62,722 nucleotides of DNA. It comes from Chlorobiaceae bacterium. GTDB lineage: Bacteria; Bacteroidota; Chlorobiia; Chlorobiales; Chlorobiaceae. A model generated the notes under the pieces. That model saw nothing but the letters and a program-made list of their open reading frames with translations, did no database searches and was not told the DNA's origin. The stretch covers positions 1 to 62,722 of the forward strand of contig JAAXVR010000014.1 in the NCBI GenBank assembly GCA_013335405.1, written 5' to 3'. Positions 24,334 through 44,307 of the stretch are shown here, piece after piece (positions within the stretch are counted from its first letter, which is position 1; every line of letters begins with the position of its first letter). The translations under genes and the position numbers were made by a program.

Positions 24334-25635
24334 ATGTGTTTTACTCTGTTAATTGAAAGCGCCGGAAAGCAGACCCCTGCAAGGAAAGTGACCGGGTGCG
24401 GTCACCGGGATGTCAGGACTTTGTTTGCCTCCAGCCGGACAGAAGCGGAACAGATGCTGCGGAACGAAAAAGTCGATCTTTTGCTCTATTCCCTTGATTC
24501 CGGGGACCCTGGAGTGCTCGGGCAGATTGCCGGTTCCGCAAAAAATATGCGGGGAACAAAAATTGTCGTATTCAGCACCCGGGATGAATTGACAGATACC
24601 CTCCGCTCATTTGAAAACCATTCCACCGAAGAACTGAAGCGGCTTTTTTCATCCGATTCTCAACAAACAGCACTTCCTGCAAGCCTGAACAGCAGCATCG
24701 AAGATTTCACCTTTCAGGGCCTTATCGGAAGTTCCAGCGAAACGCAGAAGGTAAAAGATCTGGTCGTAAAGATAGCGCCAACGGGGACGACGGTTTTAAT
24801 CCAGGGTGAAAGCGGTACCGGGAAGGAAGTTATCGCGAGGGCCATCCATTATCACAGTGCGCGGCGGAAGCAGGTTTTCATGCCTGTCGATTGCGCGGCG
24901 ATAAATGAGAGCGTCATCGAAAGTGAATTGTTCGGTCATACCAAAGGTGCCTTCACGGGAGCGGACTGGAACACTCTCGGCCTGATCCGTTCAGCGGACG
25001 GAGGAACGCTTTTCCTGGACGAAATTGCCGAGCTGCCTCTGCATCTTCAGGCAAAACTCCTCAGGACGCTGCAGGAGAAGGTCGTGAAACCTGTCGGCTC
25101 TTCGAAGATTCACCCGGTCGATATCAGAATTGTTTCCGCCACGAACCGGAACCTTGCTGAAGCGGTAAAACAGGGGTTATTCCGGCAGGACCTTTACTAT
25201 CGTCTCAGTACGGTCACCATTTATTCGCCGCCGTTACGGGAAAGGATTTCCGATCTGCCTCTGCTGTGCGATCATTTTCTGAAACAGCTCGGAAGGGAAG
25301 GTTTTCCGGAAAAACAGCTGAGCGGAAGCGCACTTGCCGCTCTCTGCGCATACGAATGGCCGGGAAACATCAGGGAACTTGAAAATGTGATCCGCAGTGC
25401 CGTAGCATTCTCGGCGGGGGACACCATACGGTCAGGTGAGCTTTCCATACCGGTAACCAGTTCGGCCGGTACCCTTTGTGCCGGTCCTGCCGCGACATCG
25501 ACCATAGCATTCCATGAAAAGGAAGCGATTCGAAAAGCCCTCGAAAAAACCATCGGCAACAGGAGGGCGGCTGCAAAGCTTCTCGGGATCAGCGAAGCGA
25601 CATTGTACAGGCGTCTCAAGCTGTATTGCATCTGA
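24334..25635 (+). CDS. sigma-54-dependent activator with pseudo-receiver
   Basis: The 433-residue protein has a 110-residue receiver-like N-terminal domain, AAA+ domain (Walker A GESGTGKE at 158-165, sigma-54-contacting GAFTGA at 205-210, Walker B GGTLFLDE) and a Fis-type HTH (RRAAAKLLGISEATLYRRL). In the receiver the phosphoacceptor position is Ser53 (VDLLLYSLDS) and the acidic pair at the N-terminus is missing, so it cannot use ordinary phosphotransfer; control may come from a protein partner. Two sigma-54 promoters with similar dyads follow in the same locus, the natural targets. Confidence 0.93.
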   Translation: MCFTLLIESAGKQTPARKVTGCGHRDVRTLFASSRTEAEQMLRNEKVDLLLYSLDSGDPGVLGQIAGSAKNMRGTKIVVFSTRDELTDTLRSFENHSTEELKRLFSSDSQQTALPASLNSSIEDFTFQGLIGSSSETQKVKDLVVKIAPTGTTVLIQGESGTGKEVIARAIHYHSARRKQVFMPVDCAAINESVIESELFGHTKGAFTGADWNTLGLIRSADGGTLFLDEIAELPLHLQAKLLRTLQEKVVKPVGSSKIHPVDIRIVSATNRNLAEAVKQGLFRQDLYYRLSTVTIYSPPLRERISDLPLLCDHFLKQLGREGFPEKQLSGSALAALCAYEWPGNIRELENVIRSAVAFSAGDTIRSGELSIPVTSSAGTLCAGPAATSTIAFHEKEAIRKALEKTIGNRRAAAKLLGISEATLYRRLKLYCI

Positions 25636-25773: not shown

Positions 25774-25789
25774 TGGCACTGTTTTTGCT
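25774..25789 (+). promoter_or_regulatory. sigma-54 (-24/-12) promoter 1 of the EPS locus
   Basis: TGGCACTGTTTTTGCT matches the sigma-54 consensus TGGCAC-N5-TTGCW at every conserved base, with the correct GG-to-GC spacing of 10 bp. It lies immediately downstream of the sigma-54 activator gene and about 190 bp before the GTG start of the first biosynthetic gene, leaving a long leader of unknown role. Confidence 0.85.
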
Positions 25790-25978: not shown

Positions 25979-27691
25979 GTGTCAACAGCGGTCATACTGG
26001 GAAGAAAAGAAGAGACCGGCCGTCTTTTTCGCTTGCTTGAGAAAACGTATCAGCAGGTCACGCTTGCTGAAACAGTTTCAGAACTCGACAAGCTGCGACG
26101 GCAGAAACAGTCACCGGGGCTTGCGGTCATAACGGACAGTTTTCCTGAAAACCTCAGTATCGAACTGGTAAATCGCGTCAGACAGAATCTCAACCCTGAA
26201 AACCTGATCTGCCTGTCGAATGATGAAAACCAGGAAAAAGAGAGGGTGCTCAGGTCTGCGGGGTTGATATTTTTCGGCAGTTACAGAAATTTTTTCGCAT
26301 TTGCAGAAAAAATAATCAAACAGACACTGAAGGGTCGAAACGGTAATCCGGCAAAGTCCATGGATGAAAGAAAAGAAAGGGCGAATGCTCTCGAAAAACG
26401 TCTTTCGGGCAATTCTCGGGGATTGACAAGGTTTATCAGGGTGATGCTTGTCACTTCGACCTCATTTGTATCCGAAGCGATCGCAAGGGTCATTGAACTG
26501 GCTGTATCGTTCTTCATCCTGCTGTTTCTGGCTTTTCCCGTCTCTTTTGCGCTGATCTTCAGAAAACTATTCACAGGGACGCCTGTATTCACCTCCGAGG
26601 TCATTACCGGTGCATCTTCAAAACCCGTTACGATTCATCGTTTCAATGATATCGGCGGTCCGCTGCGTAATATTCCCCTCTTTTTCGACCTGCTCTCCGG
26701 GCGCATCGCCCTGGCAGGAGTCGCTATGAAACCATGGGGGGAAAGTATCCCCGCTCCTGAAAACTCCTATATCGGCATGATGAAACCGGGTATCGTTTCC
26801 TTGTGGGATATAAGGAAAACGAGCAAGACGGCGCACGAAGGCCTGCAGGCGACCGAATGGGAATACACGTTCAGGAAAGGGTTCATCTATGATCTGCTGC
26901 TTGTGCTTCGTGCATTGCCGGTGCTGCTCTATTCCGAAACATCCGGAGAAGTGCCCGGATTATTTTCCATCATGGGTCTCCAGCTCGATAACCTGACCAT
27001 GGAGGAAGCGATCTCGGTAATCGAAACACAGCTCGAGGAAAAAAAACAGACAAGCATATTTTTCGTCAATCCGGACTGCCTGAACAAAACGGTCTCCGAC
27101 AGAGAGTATTTCGATATTCTCACATCCGGCGATTTCATTTTCCCGGACGGCATCGGGCTGATCATTGCCGGAAAAATGCTGAAAACCCCACTCAGGGAAA
27201 ATATCAATGGTACGGATATGCTGCCCTATCTTTGCAGAATGGCTGCTGCAAAGGGAGAGAGGCTTTTTCTTCTTGGCGGAAAACCCGGTGTTGCGGAAAC
27301 GGCTGGCCGGAAAATAAGCGAACAGTATGGTGTTGCCGTTGCCGGGACCAGCCATGGATATTTCGACCACCAGTCCGAAAGTGCCGGTGTCGTTGAAAAA
27401 ATAAACAAATCCGGGGCTTCGATTCTTCTTGTGGCCTTCGGGGCTCCTCTCCAGGAAAAATGGATATACGACAACCGTTATGCCCTCAAGCCTTCAGTAC
27501 TGATGGGCGTCGGCGGCCTGTTCGATTTTTTTTCCGGCAATATAAGGAGGGCGCCCAGGTGGATGCGTGAAATCGGCATCGAATGGGTTTACCGGATCCT
27601 CCAGGAGCCGGGACGGATGTGGAAAAGGTATGTCATAGGTAATCCTCTTTTCCTGTACAGGGTGATGAAATGGAAAATCTTCAATCAATGA
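25979..27691 (+). CDS. fusion: receiver-like domain, degenerate phosphoglycosyl transferase, WecG/TagA/CpsF glycosyltransferase
   Basis: The 570-residue protein starts at GTG with a GAAGGAG site eight bases upstream. Three parts are seen: a receiver-like domain without phosphoacceptor (about 1-120); a hydrophobic helix (about 165-195) and a sugar-transferase-like segment that keeps PLFFDLLSGRIALAGV and MKPGIVSLWDI but lacks KFRSM and the Asp-Glu catalytic pair (about 196-325); and a full WecG/TagA/CpsF domain (about 330-570; LPDG-like FPDGIGLI, FGAPLQEKW, GVGGLFDFFSG). The last domain probably adds the second sugar, a ManNAc- or Glc-type residue, to the lipid carrier. Confidence 0.85.
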   Translation: MSTAVILGRKEETGRLFRLLEKTYQQVTLAETVSELDKLRRQKQSPGLAVITDSFPENLSIELVNRVRQNLNPENLICLSNDENQEKERVLRSAGLIFFGSYRNFFAFAEKIIKQTLKGRNGNPAKSMDERKERANALEKRLSGNSRGLTRFIRVMLVTSTSFVSEAIARVIELAVSFFILLFLAFPVSFALIFRKLFTGTPVFTSEVITGASSKPVTIHRFNDIGGPLRNIPLFFDLLSGRIALAGVAMKPWGESIPAPENSYIGMMKPGIVSLWDIRKTSKTAHEGLQATEWEYTFRKGFIYDLLLVLRALPVLLYSETSGEVPGLFSIMGLQLDNLTMEEAISVIETQLEEKKQTSIFFVNPDCLNKTVSDREYFDILTSGDFIFPDGIGLIIAGKMLKTPLRENINGTDMLPYLCRMAAAKGERLFLLGGKPGVAETAGRKISEQYGVAVAGTSHGYFDHQSESAGVVEKINKSGASILLVAFGAPLQEKWIYDNRYALKPSVLMGVGGLFDFFSGNIRRAPRWMREIGIEWVYRILQEPGRMWKRYVIGNPLFLYRVMKWKIFNQ

Positions 27692-27707: not shown

Positions 27708-28427
27708 ATGGAGCTCGATCCGACGGTACGCAAAGAGCTGATCCGCAAAGTCAGCAGTTCGATAAACCCCAGGGCTCGGTTCGGGCGCACTTTGAAGGTT
27801 ATGTCGTGGGAGGGTACGGTAGCCGTCTCTTACTTCATGAAAAGGGCGCTCGACATAGCAGCATCTCTTGCGGCGATTGCGGCACTGTCGCCGGTATTCA
27901 TCCTGACAGCCCTTGCGATCTGGCTGGAAGATCCCGGCCCGGTGTTTTATGTGTCGATACGCGTCGGACGCAACGGGAGGCATTTCAGGTTCTATAAATT
28001 CCGTTCAATGGTCGTCAATGCAGAAAAGATCAAAAAACAGCTCGAAAAGCAGAACGAGTCGTCCGCCGGCGTGATTTTCAAGATGAAGAAAGACCCGAGG
28101 ATCACGAAAGTCGGAAGCATCATCAGGAGGTTCAGCATCGATGAGCTTCCCCAGCTGCTGAACGTCCTCAAGGGCGATATGAGCCTGGTGGGCCCCAGGC
28201 CTCCGGTTCCTCCTGAAGTTGCCCAGTATACCCTCGAACAGCGCAAAAGACTGCATGTCATACCCGGGATCACCTGCCTCTGGCAGGTCAGCGGCAGAAG
28301 CGATATTCCGTTTACCGACCAGGTGCGGCTCGATCTGGAATACATCAGGAGCGCCAGTTTCCTGAACGATATCCGCCTCTTACTAAAAACCATACCAGCA
28401 GTGCTTTCCGGAAGGGGAGCCTATTAA
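27708..28427 (+). CDS. initiating phosphoglycosyl transferase (bacterial sugar transferase)
   Basis: A monotopic phosphoglycosyl transferase of 239 residues that starts EPS repeat-unit assembly by moving a sugar-1-phosphate from a UDP-sugar to undecaprenyl phosphate in the inner membrane. A re-entrant hydrophobic helix (ALDIAASLAAIAALSPVFIL) is followed by DPGPVFYVSIRVGRNGRHF, the substrate motif KFRSM, the catalytic Asp-Glu in SIDELPQLLNVLKGDMSLVGPRP, and PGITCLWQVSGRS. All catalytic motifs are intact, unlike the related domains of its neighbours. It begins 16 bp after the WecG fusion. Confidence 0.95.
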   Translation: MELDPTVRKELIRKVSSSINPRARFGRTLKVMSWEGTVAVSYFMKRALDIAASLAAIAALSPVFILTALAIWLEDPGPVFYVSIRVGRNGRHFRFYKFRSMVVNAEKIKKQLEKQNESSAGVIFKMKKDPRITKVGSIIRRFSIDELPQLLNVLKGDMSLVGPRPPVPPEVAQYTLEQRKRLHVIPGITCLWQVSGRSDIPFTDQVRLDLEYIRSASFLNDIRLLLKTIPAVLSGRGAY

Positions 28428-28439
28428 AAGGAGCGTAAC

Positions 28440-28793
28440 ATGAAATTTCAAATCGATTCATCTTCCGGTCCTCATATCGGCATCGTTACGCTGACGGGCC
28501 GAGTCGATGCCAGAAACTGCACTGAATTGCAGAATTCGTTCATGTCATGGCTTATGGATACCTCACGCTTTGTTTTTGACTGTTCCGGACTGGAGTTTAT
28601 CGACAGCAGCGGTCTTGGGACGATCGTATCATGCCTGCGCAAAGCGCTCGATCATAATGGTGACCTCAAGCTTGCGGCACTGAGTCCCAAAGTGAGCATG
28701 GTGTTGGAGCTGACGAAGGCCAGCAAGCTTTTTTCCATTTTTCCCGATGCATCCGAAGCCGTGAACTCTTATGTGACTGGCACAAAGGAATAA
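28440..28793 (+). CDS. STAS anti-sigma factor antagonist (first)
   Basis: A 117-residue single STAS-domain protein of the SpoIIAA/RsbV type. VTLTGRVDARNCTELQ and FDCSGLEFIDSSGLGTIVS, with the phosphorylatable Ser in DSSGLG, are intact. Phosphorylation by an RsbW-like kinase and dephosphorylation by a PP2C phosphatase would switch partners. Starts 12 bp after the phosphoglycosyl transferase gene, so it is expressed with the biosynthetic genes; the phosphatase gene is about 4 kb upstream and the candidate kinase 1.8 kb downstream. Confidence 0.93.
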   Translation: MKFQIDSSSGPHIGIVTLTGRVDARNCTELQNSFMSWLMDTSRFVFDCSGLEFIDSSGLGTIVSCLRKALDHNGDLKLAALSPKVSMVLELTKASKLFSIFPDASEAVNSYVTGTKE

Positions 28794-28805: not shown

Positions 28806-30206
28806 ATGAAAACACTCATCGTTATCAGAGAGAAGGATTACGGCTGGATGTCCTCGTTTTTTCCCGGCGTCCATCCCCTTGTCGTTCCGATATGCAACAA
28901 ACCATTCATCGAGTTTCTCCTCGATTTTGCGATTCTTGCCGGCAGCACGGCCGTAAGGATTGTGAGCGACGGCTCTCTGAACAGCGTCGAAGCGTATTGT
29001 GAAACAGGTGACAGGTGGGGTATCGAACTTGGTTACGGGAGCATCAGGCAGAACGACAGCGATGAAACTGTCATGGAAAAGAACCGCCTGTTTTGTTCGG
29101 AAGACAGGGTTCTGGTCATAAACGGTTTCATTTTCATACGCTATGCGGACAAGGCCGGATTGAAGTCTTTTTTTGCCGAGACCTCTTCCGGCTCTCTGTC
29201 TCGGTGCTCTTCAGGGAGCATTGAACTCACCGGCATTCCGGAGGATGTTTCTGCCGCTCCGGGAACCCTTCCGTTCTCTTTGACCGATCTTCACTCGATT
29301 GACAGCTATTACCGGCTCAATGCGGAAATACTGACAGACTATCCGTCACCCTATGTCCTTCCCGGATACAGCAATGAACCGGACTGCCATATGGGCAGGA
29401 ATGTGGTGATAAGCAAAGGCGCGGAAGTCATCAAACCCGTTGTCATCGGCAACAACGTCCAGATAATGAAAGGGGCCATAGTCGGGCCGTCTGCGGTCAT
29501 CGGAAGCAATGTTATCGTCGACAGGGAGAGCACCGTATCCCGGAGCATCGTTCTCGATAACACCTACATCGGCGAACAGCTTGATATCGTCGGCAGGATC
29601 GCTTCCGGCAATACCCTTGTCGATCCTGAAACCGCTTTCCTGGTTTCCATGGAAGATCCGCATCTTCTGGCGGGTATGAATAAAGCTGCCCGCCGCCAGG
29701 GACTCGTGCTTATCCGTTACCTCGCCCATGCGGCCATTGCCTTGTTGCTTATACTTCTCCTGATCCTCCCGTATCTCTTTTTCCGGATTTTGCTGAGCGT
29801 TACGGCGAAGTGGCAAACCCGCGCCGTTACCTTTTACGGCGCAAACGAGGGTAAAAGCTTTACCAGCGCTCTTCCATCGATATCCTGCGGCGGGACGACG
29901 TGTTCCCTGTTTACCAGGCTCTCCCTGGACCGGTTTCCGATGTTTTTCCACGTCCTTGCGGGGAAAATAGGAGTCATAGGCAGTTTTCCGCTTGAAGTGA
30001 AGGAATCCGGACACGGAGAAACGGAAATTTTTTCCGGTTACCGCCCTGCCGTTTTCAGCTATGCCGAAGCTGAGGACTGGCCTGCGGATGCAGGGGAGAG
30101 CGCGATCGTTGAACGCTATTATGCCGTTCACGGCACACCGGCACAGGATATTGTTCTAACCGTAAAAGCATTCCTGAACAGAATGCATCCAGGGGAGCAG
30201 GAATGA
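28806..30206 (+). CDS. fusion: nucleotidyltransferase-like, left-handed beta-helix, membrane helix, sugar-transferase remnant
   Basis: The 466-residue protein has an N-terminal GT-A/nucleotidyltransferase-like part (VPICNKPFIEFLLDF resembles sugar-nucleotide pyrophosphorylases, although the GGxGTR loop is absent), hexapeptide repeats of a left-handed beta-helix (about 195-270; VISKGAEVIKPVVIGNNVQI), a transmembrane helix (LIRYLAHAAIALLLILLLIL, about 300-325) and a C-terminal segment with DRFPMFFHVLAGKIGVIGSFPL, which recalls the ELPQLLNVLKGDMSLVGPRP core of phosphoglycosyl transferases with its Asp-Glu pair altered. Function unclear; probably an EPS scaffold or modified transferase. It overlaps the next STAS gene by 4 bp (ATGA). 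Confidence 0.75.
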   Translation: MKTLIVIREKDYGWMSSFFPGVHPLVVPICNKPFIEFLLDFAILAGSTAVRIVSDGSLNSVEAYCETGDRWGIELGYGSIRQNDSDETVMEKNRLFCSEDRVLVINGFIFIRYADKAGLKSFFAETSSGSLSRCSSGSIELTGIPEDVSAAPGTLPFSLTDLHSIDSYYRLNAEILTDYPSPYVLPGYSNEPDCHMGRNVVISKGAEVIKPVVIGNNVQIMKGAIVGPSAVIGSNVIVDRESTVSRSIVLDNTYIGEQLDIVGRIASGNTLVDPETAFLVSMEDPHLLAGMNKAARRQGLVLIRYLAHAAIALLLILLLILPYLFFRILLSVTAKWQTRAVTFYGANEGKSFTSALPSISCGGTTCSLFTRLSLDRFPMFFHVLAGKIGVIGSFPLEVKESGHGETEIFSGYRPAVFSYAEAEDWPADAGESAIVERYYAVHGTPAQDIVLTVKAFLNRMHPGEQE

Positions 30207-30532
30207 TGATCAGGGAAAGAAATCACAACGGCGTAACAATAGTTATGCCGGTCGGCAGGCTCGATTCTTCGTCTGCCTCACAGTTCATGAGCGGTTCTCC
30301 GTCATTCAGCGGCAACGGGAAGATCGTGATCGACCTGTCGGAAGTCGATTTTATCGACAGCACAGGGCTCGGCTCACTGGTTGGAATTGCAAGGAAAAAA
30401 AGAGAGCAGGGAGGCGATGTCAGGCTTGCCTGCCTGAACGAAAAGTTGCGCAAGGTATTCGAGATTACACAGGCCTTCAGACTTTTCGATATTTATGACG
30501 ATGCGGAAACCGCGGCAGGACGGCAAGGTTAA
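30203..30532 (+). CDS. STAS anti-sigma factor antagonist (second)
   Basis: A 109-residue STAS protein. VIVMPVGRLDSS-like opening (VTIVMPVGRLDSSSA) and VIDLSEVDFIDSTGLGSLVG, with DSTGLG as phosphorylation site, then the paired LNEKLRKVFEITQAFRLF. It is distinct from the first STAS protein and starts within the stop codon of the preceding gene. Ends 17 bp before the RsbW-like kinase gene, the classic antagonist-kinase pairing of SpoIIAA-SpoIIAB, so this one is the more likely direct partner of that kinase. Confidence 0.93.
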   Translation: MMIRERNHNGVTIVMPVGRLDSSSASQFMSGSPSFSGNGKIVIDLSEVDFIDSTGLGSLVGIARKKREQGGDVRLACLNEKLRKVFEITQAFRLFDIYDDAETAAGRQG

Positions 30533-30548
30533 AAAAAATAATTATCCG

Positions 30549-30989
30549 ATGAGTGCATCCATCACCATGAATCTGCCTTCAGATATCCGTTATGTCCGTA
30601 TTGCATCGAATACGGCGCGGAGTGTTGCCGAATTGTTTTCAGGAGAGAATGGAGGCGAAGAGGGAAAATATGAGGAATTCCGCAATGCTTTCGAGCTTGC
30701 AGTTACGGAAGCTTTTTCAAATTCGGTCCGTCATGGGAACTCTCCGGACAAGGGCAGGCAGATCTTCATTACCTTCAGCCCCGAAAATGAGGGGCTGACG
30801 GCCAGTGTAGCCGATACGAATCCCGCATTCAACCCCGAAATTCCGCCACCGGACATCTTCAGTTATCCCGAAAGTGGCTACGGGCTTTTAATGATCCGCC
30901 AACTCATGGACGAAATCAGGTATTCGAGAAAAGACGGAAACAATACGCTGACCATGCATAAAAAGCTGAAAAATCCCCATAACCAATAA
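30549..30989 (+). CDS. RsbW/SpoIIAB-like anti-sigma factor kinase (HATPase_c_2)
   Basis: About 146 residues with a GHKL ATPase fold: N-box ELAVTEAFSNSVRHG and a G2-like YGLLMIRQLMDEI. The G1 box is DTNPAFNP where most RsbW proteins have DxGxGF, so ATP binding may be weakened. Start at ATG 30549 matches the family's length; an alternative ATG at 30495 overlaps the STAS gene. It would phosphorylate the STAS protein(s) and bind a sigma factor or another target. No ECF or sigma-B-like sigma gene is adjacent, so its output partner is unknown. Confidence 0.85.
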   Translation: MSASITMNLPSDIRYVRIASNTARSVAELFSGENGGEEGKYEEFRNAFELAVTEAFSNSVRHGNSPDKGRQIFITFSPENEGLTASVADTNPAFNPEIPPPDIFSYPESGYGLLMIRQLMDEIRYSRKDGNNTLTMHKKLKNPHNQ

Positions 30990-32632: not shown

Positions 32633-32648
32633 TGGCATATTTATTGCT
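32633..32648 (+). promoter_or_regulatory. sigma-54 (-24/-12) promoter 2, before wza
   Basis: TGGCATATTTATTGCT has the sigma-54 invariant GG and GC with 10-bp spacing and a TTGCT -12 element. Transcription would begin about 12 bp later (around 32660), giving a short leader to the wza ATG at 32691. Confidence 0.88.
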
Positions 32649-42995: not shown

Positions 42996-43215
42996 CATGA
43001 AAACAGGTGAAAAACATGCATGACGTGCGGTCAGGTGCAGAGGAACAGATGCCTGATCAGGCTGATTGTTTTTCTTCCGGAGTATCAATCGCATGGGCAG
43101 GGCGGCCGTTTATGAAAAGGGAGATTAATGCAATAATGTTCGGGTCAGATTCAGGCAGGTCCAGGAACGATGCATTTGCCTGGAGATGCTTCCCCAAAAA
43201 CTCAAGGAAAACAAT

Positions 43216-44307
43216 ATGAAACTCGGTGAACTTGCTGTCGTAGGACTGAAGCATACGCGCAATGCGGTTGCGGAAACATTGTATCTGAAATCCGGTATCG
43301 ACATTACCAGGCCGGTAACATTTCATGCTCTTGTCAACGAGCGATGCAACTGCAAATGCCGTCACTGTGAATACTGGCGCCAGGAAGAGTACATACCCGA
43401 GATGACGGTGGAAGAGTGGAAGAAGACTCTGCTCAGCATCAGGGAATTCACCGGTCCCTTCGCCATCAACTTCAGCGGAGGGGAACCGTTCATCAAGAAG
43501 GGGTTTATCGAGCTGCTGCAGTTCTGCAGGGCAGAGAACATCCATGCAGGCGTCACCACGAACGGCGCATTGCTCAATGAAAGGAACGTTTCCGCCATTG
43601 TCGCCGCGAAACCTTTCAATCTCAACATTTCCTGCGATTCGCATGAAGCCGCGGTTCATGATTACATCAGGGGGATGAACGGTCTTTTTTCGAAAATAAC
43701 CCGGGGCATGGCACTTCTGCAGGAAGAGCAGGCAAAACAGGGAGTTGTCTTTCCTGTCATCATCAAGCCAACCGTCATGTCGCTCAATTTCAGGTCGCTT
43801 CCCGACATCATCGACTGGGCTGTCAAAACTGGTGCCACGGCAGTGAATTTCCAGCCGCTCGGCAGATGGACGCCCGAAACATACGATGAGCTCTGGATCG
43901 AGGAAAAAGACATACCGGAACTCGACAGCGTCATGGAAACAGTGATTGCCATGAAACGCAATGGAGCTCCTGTCATGAACAGCGAAGAGGTGCTTCGCCT
44001 CATGTCGGCAAGTTTTCGCGAGGAGAAAGCCTCTCCGGAAAACCTGCCCTGCAGGATTGCCCTGCAGGAACTCTACATCCGGCCGGACGGCGAGGCCAAG
44101 CTCTGTTTTCACTTTCCGTCAGTCGGCAACACCCAAAAGCAATCTGCAAAAGAGATCTGGACCGGGGAACAAGCGCAGAAAATCCGGAAAGCGACCCTGA
44201 CCTGCGATAAACTGTGCCTTCTGACATGTCTTTCCCATAAATCATTGATTCATAAAGTAAATCAGGCAGTAACCATTCTGCGCCGCCAGAGAAAAAAGAA
44301 ATCGTAA
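43216..44307 (+). CDS. radical SAM protein of the EPS locus
   Basis: A 363-residue radical SAM enzyme. The 4Fe-4S motif CNCKCRHC (about residues 44-51), NFSGGEPF (SAM binding) and VTTNGALL mark the core; a Cys-rich C-terminal part (CRIALQELYIRPDGEAKLCF, then CDKLCLLTC) resembles SPASM auxiliary-cluster domains. Start at ATG 43216 with an AAGGA site; an upstream ATG at 43186 has none. It lies between the polymerase block and three glycosyltransferases after a 220-bp gap. Substrate unknown; sugar or peptide modification linked to EPS is possible. Confidence 0.82.
   Translation: MKLGELAVVGLKHTRNAVAETLYLKSGIDITRPVTFHALVNERCNCKCRHCEYWRQEEYIPEMTVEEWKKTLLSIREFTGPFAINFSGGEPFIKKGFIELLQFCRAENIHAGVTTNGALLNERNVSAIVAAKPFNLNISCDSHEAAVHDYIRGMNGLFSKITRGMALLQEEQAKQGVVFPVIIKPTVMSLNFRSLPDIIDWAVKTGATAVNFQPLGRWTPETYDELWIEEKDIPELDSVMETVIAMKRNGAPVMNSEEVLRLMSASFREEKASPENLPCRIALQELYIRPDGEAKLCFHFPSVGNTQKQSAKEIWTGEQAQKIRKATLTCDKLCLLTCLSHKSLIHKVNQAVTILRRQRKKKS

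Follow-up and report, generated by a model that had tools for sequence, protein, structure and literature searches.

A predicted non-catalytic phosphoglycosyl transferase domain fused to a WecG/TagA glycosyltransferase in Chlorobiaceae

Bi-PGTs join a phosphoglycosyl transferase (PGT) domain to another glycoconjugate enzyme (O'Toole et al. 2021, as cited in PMC10942596). TagA, of the WecG/TagA/CpsF (GT26) family, needs its C-terminal appendage to associate with the membrane, and docking in TagA puts Arg83 beside the acceptor diphosphate (PMC6493773). According to a study of WbaP, understanding of how initiating PGTs are regulated remains limited (PMC10942596). The protein described here carries what appears to be a dead PGT domain on a GT26 enzyme, and it bears on two questions: how PGTs are regulated, and how the lipid-linked intermediate is delivered to the enzyme that follows.

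The fusion protein and the adjacent PGT

The window analyzed is positions 1 to 62,722 of contig JAAXVR010000014.1 (assembly GCA_013335405.1), from a green sulphur bacterium of the family Chlorobiaceae. The fusion gene lies at 25979-27691 on the plus strand, starts with GTG and encodes 570 residues, as the first-pass annotation had it. The protein consists of a degenerate receiver (residues 1-117), a degenerate monotopic PGT domain (pseudo-PGT or pPGT, residues ~148-322) and a WecG/TagA GT26 domain (residues ~328-570). This three-domain architecture, proposed in the first-pass annotation, is well supported by Pfam, by profile-profile comparison and by Foldseek matches of the single-chain AlphaFold model (mean pLDDT 83, pTM 0.62) to CheY-like, PglC/WbaP and TagA folds. 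The domain search and structure prediction called for earlier give a clear GT26 domain and a middle region that is sub-threshold in Pfam and matches PGTs in fold. The three-part reading had been made to depend on the middle region being a PGT relative, and with these fold matches it stands.

The GT26 domain (26960..27688, plus strand) matches Pfam PF03808 at residues 385-551 (E 4e-62), and its model superimposes on TagA with a TM score of 0.94. It is the only GT26 match in the host genome. The domain was first described as intact, which holds for the equivalents of TagA Asp65 (the catalytic base), Gln167/Glu168 (Asp in some members) and the appendage residues Arg214, Arg221 and Arg224. It does not hold for two other positions: in the fused subfamily Thr37 is replaced by Phe and Arg83 by Asn, while Asn39 is conserved. 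A residue survey found Phe or Tyr in place of Thr37, and Asn in place of Arg83, in all 45 distinct pPGT-fused GT26 domains. Of 53 unfused GT26 proteins, 29 have Arg83 and 16 have Asn at that position. Because both positions vary among unfused members, they do not decide GT26 membership. This enzyme probably transfers the second sugar to undecaprenyl-PP-sugar.

Directly downstream, at 27708..28427 (plus strand), is the intact small monotopic PGT that had been reported there, with KFRSM at residues 97-101, the Asp-Glu (DE) dyad at 145-146 and GPRP. No other PGT match reaches E<=1e-5 in the genome, which is 99.99% complete. With a single GT26 and a single PGT match in the genome, both probably serve the same initiation pathway.

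The pPGT domain (26420..26944, plus strand) is harder to recognize. Its Pfam Bac_transf match at residues 231-316 scores 25.7 bits against a threshold of 27. Comparison by hhalign of a profile of 32 fusion relatives with one of 27 cassette PGTs, the family of the downstream enzyme, gives E 1.7e-19 over 190 columns; residues 130-321 cover an almost complete PGT, with a single large gap that spans KFRSM to SIDEL. The domain thus lacks a stretch of about 39 columns running from KFRSM to the Asp-Glu pair. The model matches PglC (8g1n) and WbaP (8t53) with Foldseek E values of about 1e-5. The PGT fold, including the re-entrant helix and its helix-breaking proline (Pro187, present in at least 90% of the alignment), is retained, as are PGT-like PG and LW motifs. 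The KFRSM-type basic motif is absent from the pPGT, its segment being deleted, and so is the Asp-Glu dyad, whose columns align to Arg230-Asn231. GPRP is absent from the window's pPGT, which has GVAM in its place; GPR is retained in the pPGTs of the Acidobacteriota relatives and in L060/L061. KFRSM and the DE pair are missing in every aligned member. The pPGTs of Chlorobiota, Desulfobacterota and Lentisphaeria have lost the catalytic segment, and the nucleophile position is gone in all aligned members. The globular part has a conserved motif of its own, PGI-SLW--R--S--AHEG-EWEY. Because of the hhalign alignment, the KFRSM-to-SIDEL gap and the fold matches, the middle region is a PGT relative and, judged by what catalysis is known to require, a dead one, much as the first-pass annotation had read it.

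The pPGT is not decaying, because its dN/dS values are low: 0.15-0.27 in 12 of 13 pairs, and 0.45 in the remaining pair, L013/L015. These are generally higher than for the GT26 domain or the active PGT, and far from neutral. The pPGT is under purifying selection. A phylogenetic tree places the fusion pPGTs from every phylum in one group (support 97/97), together with 10 of the 12 pPGTs from the third cassette gene (see below). A separate clade of 18 rows (support 90/94) comprises the cassette PGTs, among them the non-adjacent PGTs of two exceptional genomes. The deep branching order is unsure because the branches are long. Judged from alignments and models, the pPGT is a genuine, old and catalytically dead paralogue of the small monotopic PGTs. 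That it is a remnant of a bifunctional PGT-WecG enzyme now in decay is very improbable: its sub-threshold Pfam score and its faster evolution than the active PGT would fit, but conservation in four phyla contradicts it, and it is rejected on dN/dS far below 1.

Relatives and regulation

The search of related genomes for the same fusion, also called for earlier, finds 28 pPGT-WecG loci in the genome collection, and the fusion recurs in Chlorobiota, Desulfobacterota, Verrucomicrobiota/Lentisphaeria and Acidobacteriota. Counting only matches that span both domains, and including the central genome of each draw, the fusion is present in 3 of 345 genomes from Desulfobacterota (the phylum of L019), 8 of 297 from Acidobacteriota (L028) and about 11 of 289 from Verrucomicrobiota/Lentisphaeria (L022). 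In the draw from the window's own phylum it is restricted to Chlorobiaceae, and stand-alone WecG is common elsewhere. Chlorobiaceae that have a TagA-like WecG do without a pPGT.

The neighbours of the fusion are also conserved. An active PGT is encoded no more than 2.5 kb from the fusion in 38 of 41 loci with flanks. A third cassette gene, encoding a nucleotidyltransferase-like domain, a beta-helix and a dead PGT end, is found within 3.5 kb in 39. As for the exceptions, G168 has its cassette-type PGT on the same contig at a distance of about 30 kb, and G789 has one elsewhere in the genome; only another type of PGT was found in G856. Since the pPGT-WecG pairing recurs beside a working PGT in at least four phyla, the dead copy is under selection.

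Most relatives have pPGT and WecG without a receiver. The receiver-pPGT-WecG order of the window is shared by L001, L002, L004, L013, L015 and L024. A receiver joined to a TagA-like WecG is found in L043, and one with a partial pPGT in L058; TagA-like WecG (L036-L039, L042, L045), receiver (L046, L057) and pPGT (L054) also occur alone. The Verrucomicrobiota/Lentisphaeria draw includes triple fusions of GT4, pPGT and WecG (L098, L099, L101). Many GT4-WecG fusions without a pPGT occur alongside these (e.g. L103, L104, L106, L107, L111). L112 (G240:C21) encodes pPGT, WecG and active PGT in one ORF of 663 aa, with an ATG start and uniform GC3. This arrangement is seen in one genome and is absent from six other genomes of the same family. 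As a Rosetta-stone fusion, it hints more strongly than any other observation that the parts associate physically, albeit from a single case. L035 was considered as an active PGT-WecG fusion and rejected, as a stop divides the two adjacent ORFs. L013 lies on a 4.3-kb contig labelled "Rhodospirillaceae" that is nearly identical to the Desulfobacterales locus L015, and may be a binning error.

The receiver (25979..26329, plus strand) has the receiver fold in residues 1-117, with matches of the AlphaFold model to CheY and KdpE. Alignment to receivers encoded in the window shows that it lacks the acidic pair and the conserved Lys and retains a conserved TDS aspartate, so the designation as a pseudo-receiver was apt. 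Its place in a three-part fusion is confirmed for this protein and does not extend to the family: the many receiver-less relatives rule it out as an obligate part.

The receiver appears to belong to a regulatory module. A sigma-54-dependent activator is encoded at 24334..25635 on the plus strand (Sigma54_activat, E 5e-68), with GAFTGA and a receiver-like N-terminus. It is followed by a plus-strand -24/-12 promoter, TGGCACTGTTTTTGCT, at 25774..25789, which agrees with the consensus at 11 of 11 positions and lies 189 bases upstream of the fusion gene. The host genome has rpoN. A second sigma-54-type promoter (10/11) is located at 32633-32648, upstream of a Wza-like gene. A site with 10-11 of 11 positions is present in every receiver-bearing pPGT-WecG locus, and was found in none of 13 receiver-less Chlorobiaceae loci. 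The link between receiver and site is strong and not absolute, because L019 has the site but no receiver, and L043 lacks the site despite having both the receiver and the activator. In pPGT-WecG loci the receiver is a detachable module, gained or lost together with the activator gene and the promoter, and therefore seems to be a regulatory element outside the enzyme core. In L054/L124 (G012:C74) the activator is split over two frames, the receiver, promoter and WecG are gone, and the pPGT persists as a free 180-aa ORF beside the PGT.

The third cassette protein and its operon

The operon contains a second dead PGT domain, absent from the earlier annotation. The gene at 28806..30206 (plus strand) encodes a nucleotidyltransferase-like domain, a left-handed beta-helix and, at residues ~298-462 (29697-30191, plus strand), a second pseudo-PGT. 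This C-terminus aligns to PGTs by hhalign (E 4e-9) and is sub-threshold for Pfam Bac_transf. By Foldseek, the product resembles GDP-mannose pyrophosphorylase, GMPPA and eIF2B. Its nucleotidyltransferase-like domain looks degenerate, and the nucleotide-binding motif normally present at the N-terminus seems to be missing.

A STAS-domain protein is encoded between the PGT and this hexapeptide protein (28440..28793), and a second one (30203..30532) and a HATPase_c_2 anti-sigma-factor-like kinase (30495..30989) follow, all on the plus strand and assigned by Pfam. Downstream of 28806-30206, the genes encode STAS, HATPase, GT2, hexapeptide acetyltransferase and Wza-like proteins, with further glycosyltransferases after them. 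Between 20574 and 30989, a hybrid sensor kinase, a receiver-PAS-SpoIIE-like protein, the two STAS proteins and the one HATPase are interspersed among polysaccharide genes; this mix suggests a partner-switching circuit linked to the polysaccharide pathway. A Radical SAM/SPASM protein (43186-44304) is also encoded within the polysaccharide gene cluster.

Role of the pPGT and comparison with known systems

A somewhat better than even case can be made that the pPGT serves as a subunit for membrane attachment and docking, without catalytic activity of its own, and couples the GT26 enzyme to the active PGT. The domain would no longer transfer phosphosugar. Its re-entrant helix would anchor the GT26 domain at the cytoplasmic face of the membrane, and it would pair with the active PGT encoded by the adjacent gene, letting undecaprenyl-PP-sugar pass straight from the PGT to the GT26 enzyme for addition of the second sugar. 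The third cassette protein would probably belong to this complex at the membrane, where it would sense or regulate the supply of sugar nucleotides. In the receiver-bearing variant, transcription would be switched by the adjacent sigma-54 activator, with the pseudo-receiver belonging to that module. We infer the membrane pairing, the substrate hand-off and the regulatory role of the third protein. The earlier suggestion that the dead domain may dock the active one gains from the 38/41 co-occurrence, the distinct PGT clade and the single chain of L112, from which we infer the contact itself. Adjacency of PGT and WecG alone is weak support, because WecG adjoins a PGT without any pPGT too (e.g. 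L035-L039).

It is possible, though unlikely, that the pPGT is a plain membrane anchor whose re-entrant helix positions the GT26 domain without a specific partner. The helix and its proline are conserved although catalysis is lost, TagA itself needs membrane association through its appendage (PMC6493773), and related GT26 enzymes in Lentisphaeria-type genomes lack a pPGT, sometimes with an N-terminal GT4 instead. However, the globular part is conserved as well, with its own motif and low dN/dS, the fused GT26 already has the TagA-type appendage Arg residues, and a dead PGT domain is also carried by the third cassette protein. A little less probable still is that the pPGT presents the acceptor, binding undecaprenyl-PP-sugar for the GT26 domain and replacing lost acceptor contacts. 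The PG and LW motifs are consistent with this, as is the uniform loss in fused domains, against partial loss in unfused ones, of the Arg that sits by the acceptor diphosphate in TagA docking (PMC6493773). The Arg83 change invites, without proving, the view that the pPGT assists in handling the acceptor; Asn also occurs there in 16 of the 53 proteins without a pPGT, so the correlation with fusion may just reflect one clade. That the pPGT is still an enzyme with a different chemistry, as its new motif might hint, is hardly credible given the deleted catalytic segment and the lost nucleophile position. Docking and membrane coupling is thus the reading that we modestly favour over a plain anchor or acceptor presentation.

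More tentatively, one active monotopic PGT and two dead PGT subunits, one bearing GT26 and the other a nucleotidyltransferase-like sensor, may constitute an undescribed class of initiating-enzyme assembly conserved in at least four phyla, working as a regulated metabolon at the membrane that carries out steps one and two of polysaccharide synthesis. If this is true, dead PGT domains on the next enzyme and on a sensor-like protein offer a natural, testable handle on how steps one and two are coupled. An earlier description of a pseudo-PGT or of a dead-PGT-WecG fusion was not found in the searchable literature, of which few subscription papers were covered.

In the GMPPA-GMPPB, VTC1-KJC2 and eIF2B systems, the subunit that regulates the active one is itself a poor catalyst. 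The third cassette protein is like these in its nucleotidyltransferase-like fold and left-handed beta-helix, and differs in being bacterial and in having a dead PGT domain at its end. The fused GT26 shares with TagA/WecG/CpsF the fold and the catalytic and appendage residues described above; it differs from TagA at positions 37 and 83, in its fused pseudo-PGT and sometimes in a receiver too. The pPGT shares with PglC-type small monotopic PGTs and the PGT domain of WbaP the fold, the re-entrant helix proline and the PG and LW motifs, but has neither KFRSM, the Asp-Glu dyad nor the segment between them, and from its sequence should be incapable of catalysis by the known PGT mechanism. As with the Bi-PGTs, insofar as PMC10942596 describes them, a PGT domain is joined to another glycoconjugate enzyme; here, in contrast, the fused domain is a dead one and a separate gene encodes the active PGT, L112 excepted among the relatives. 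The fusion is a variant of monoPGT biology, akin to the Bi-PGTs.
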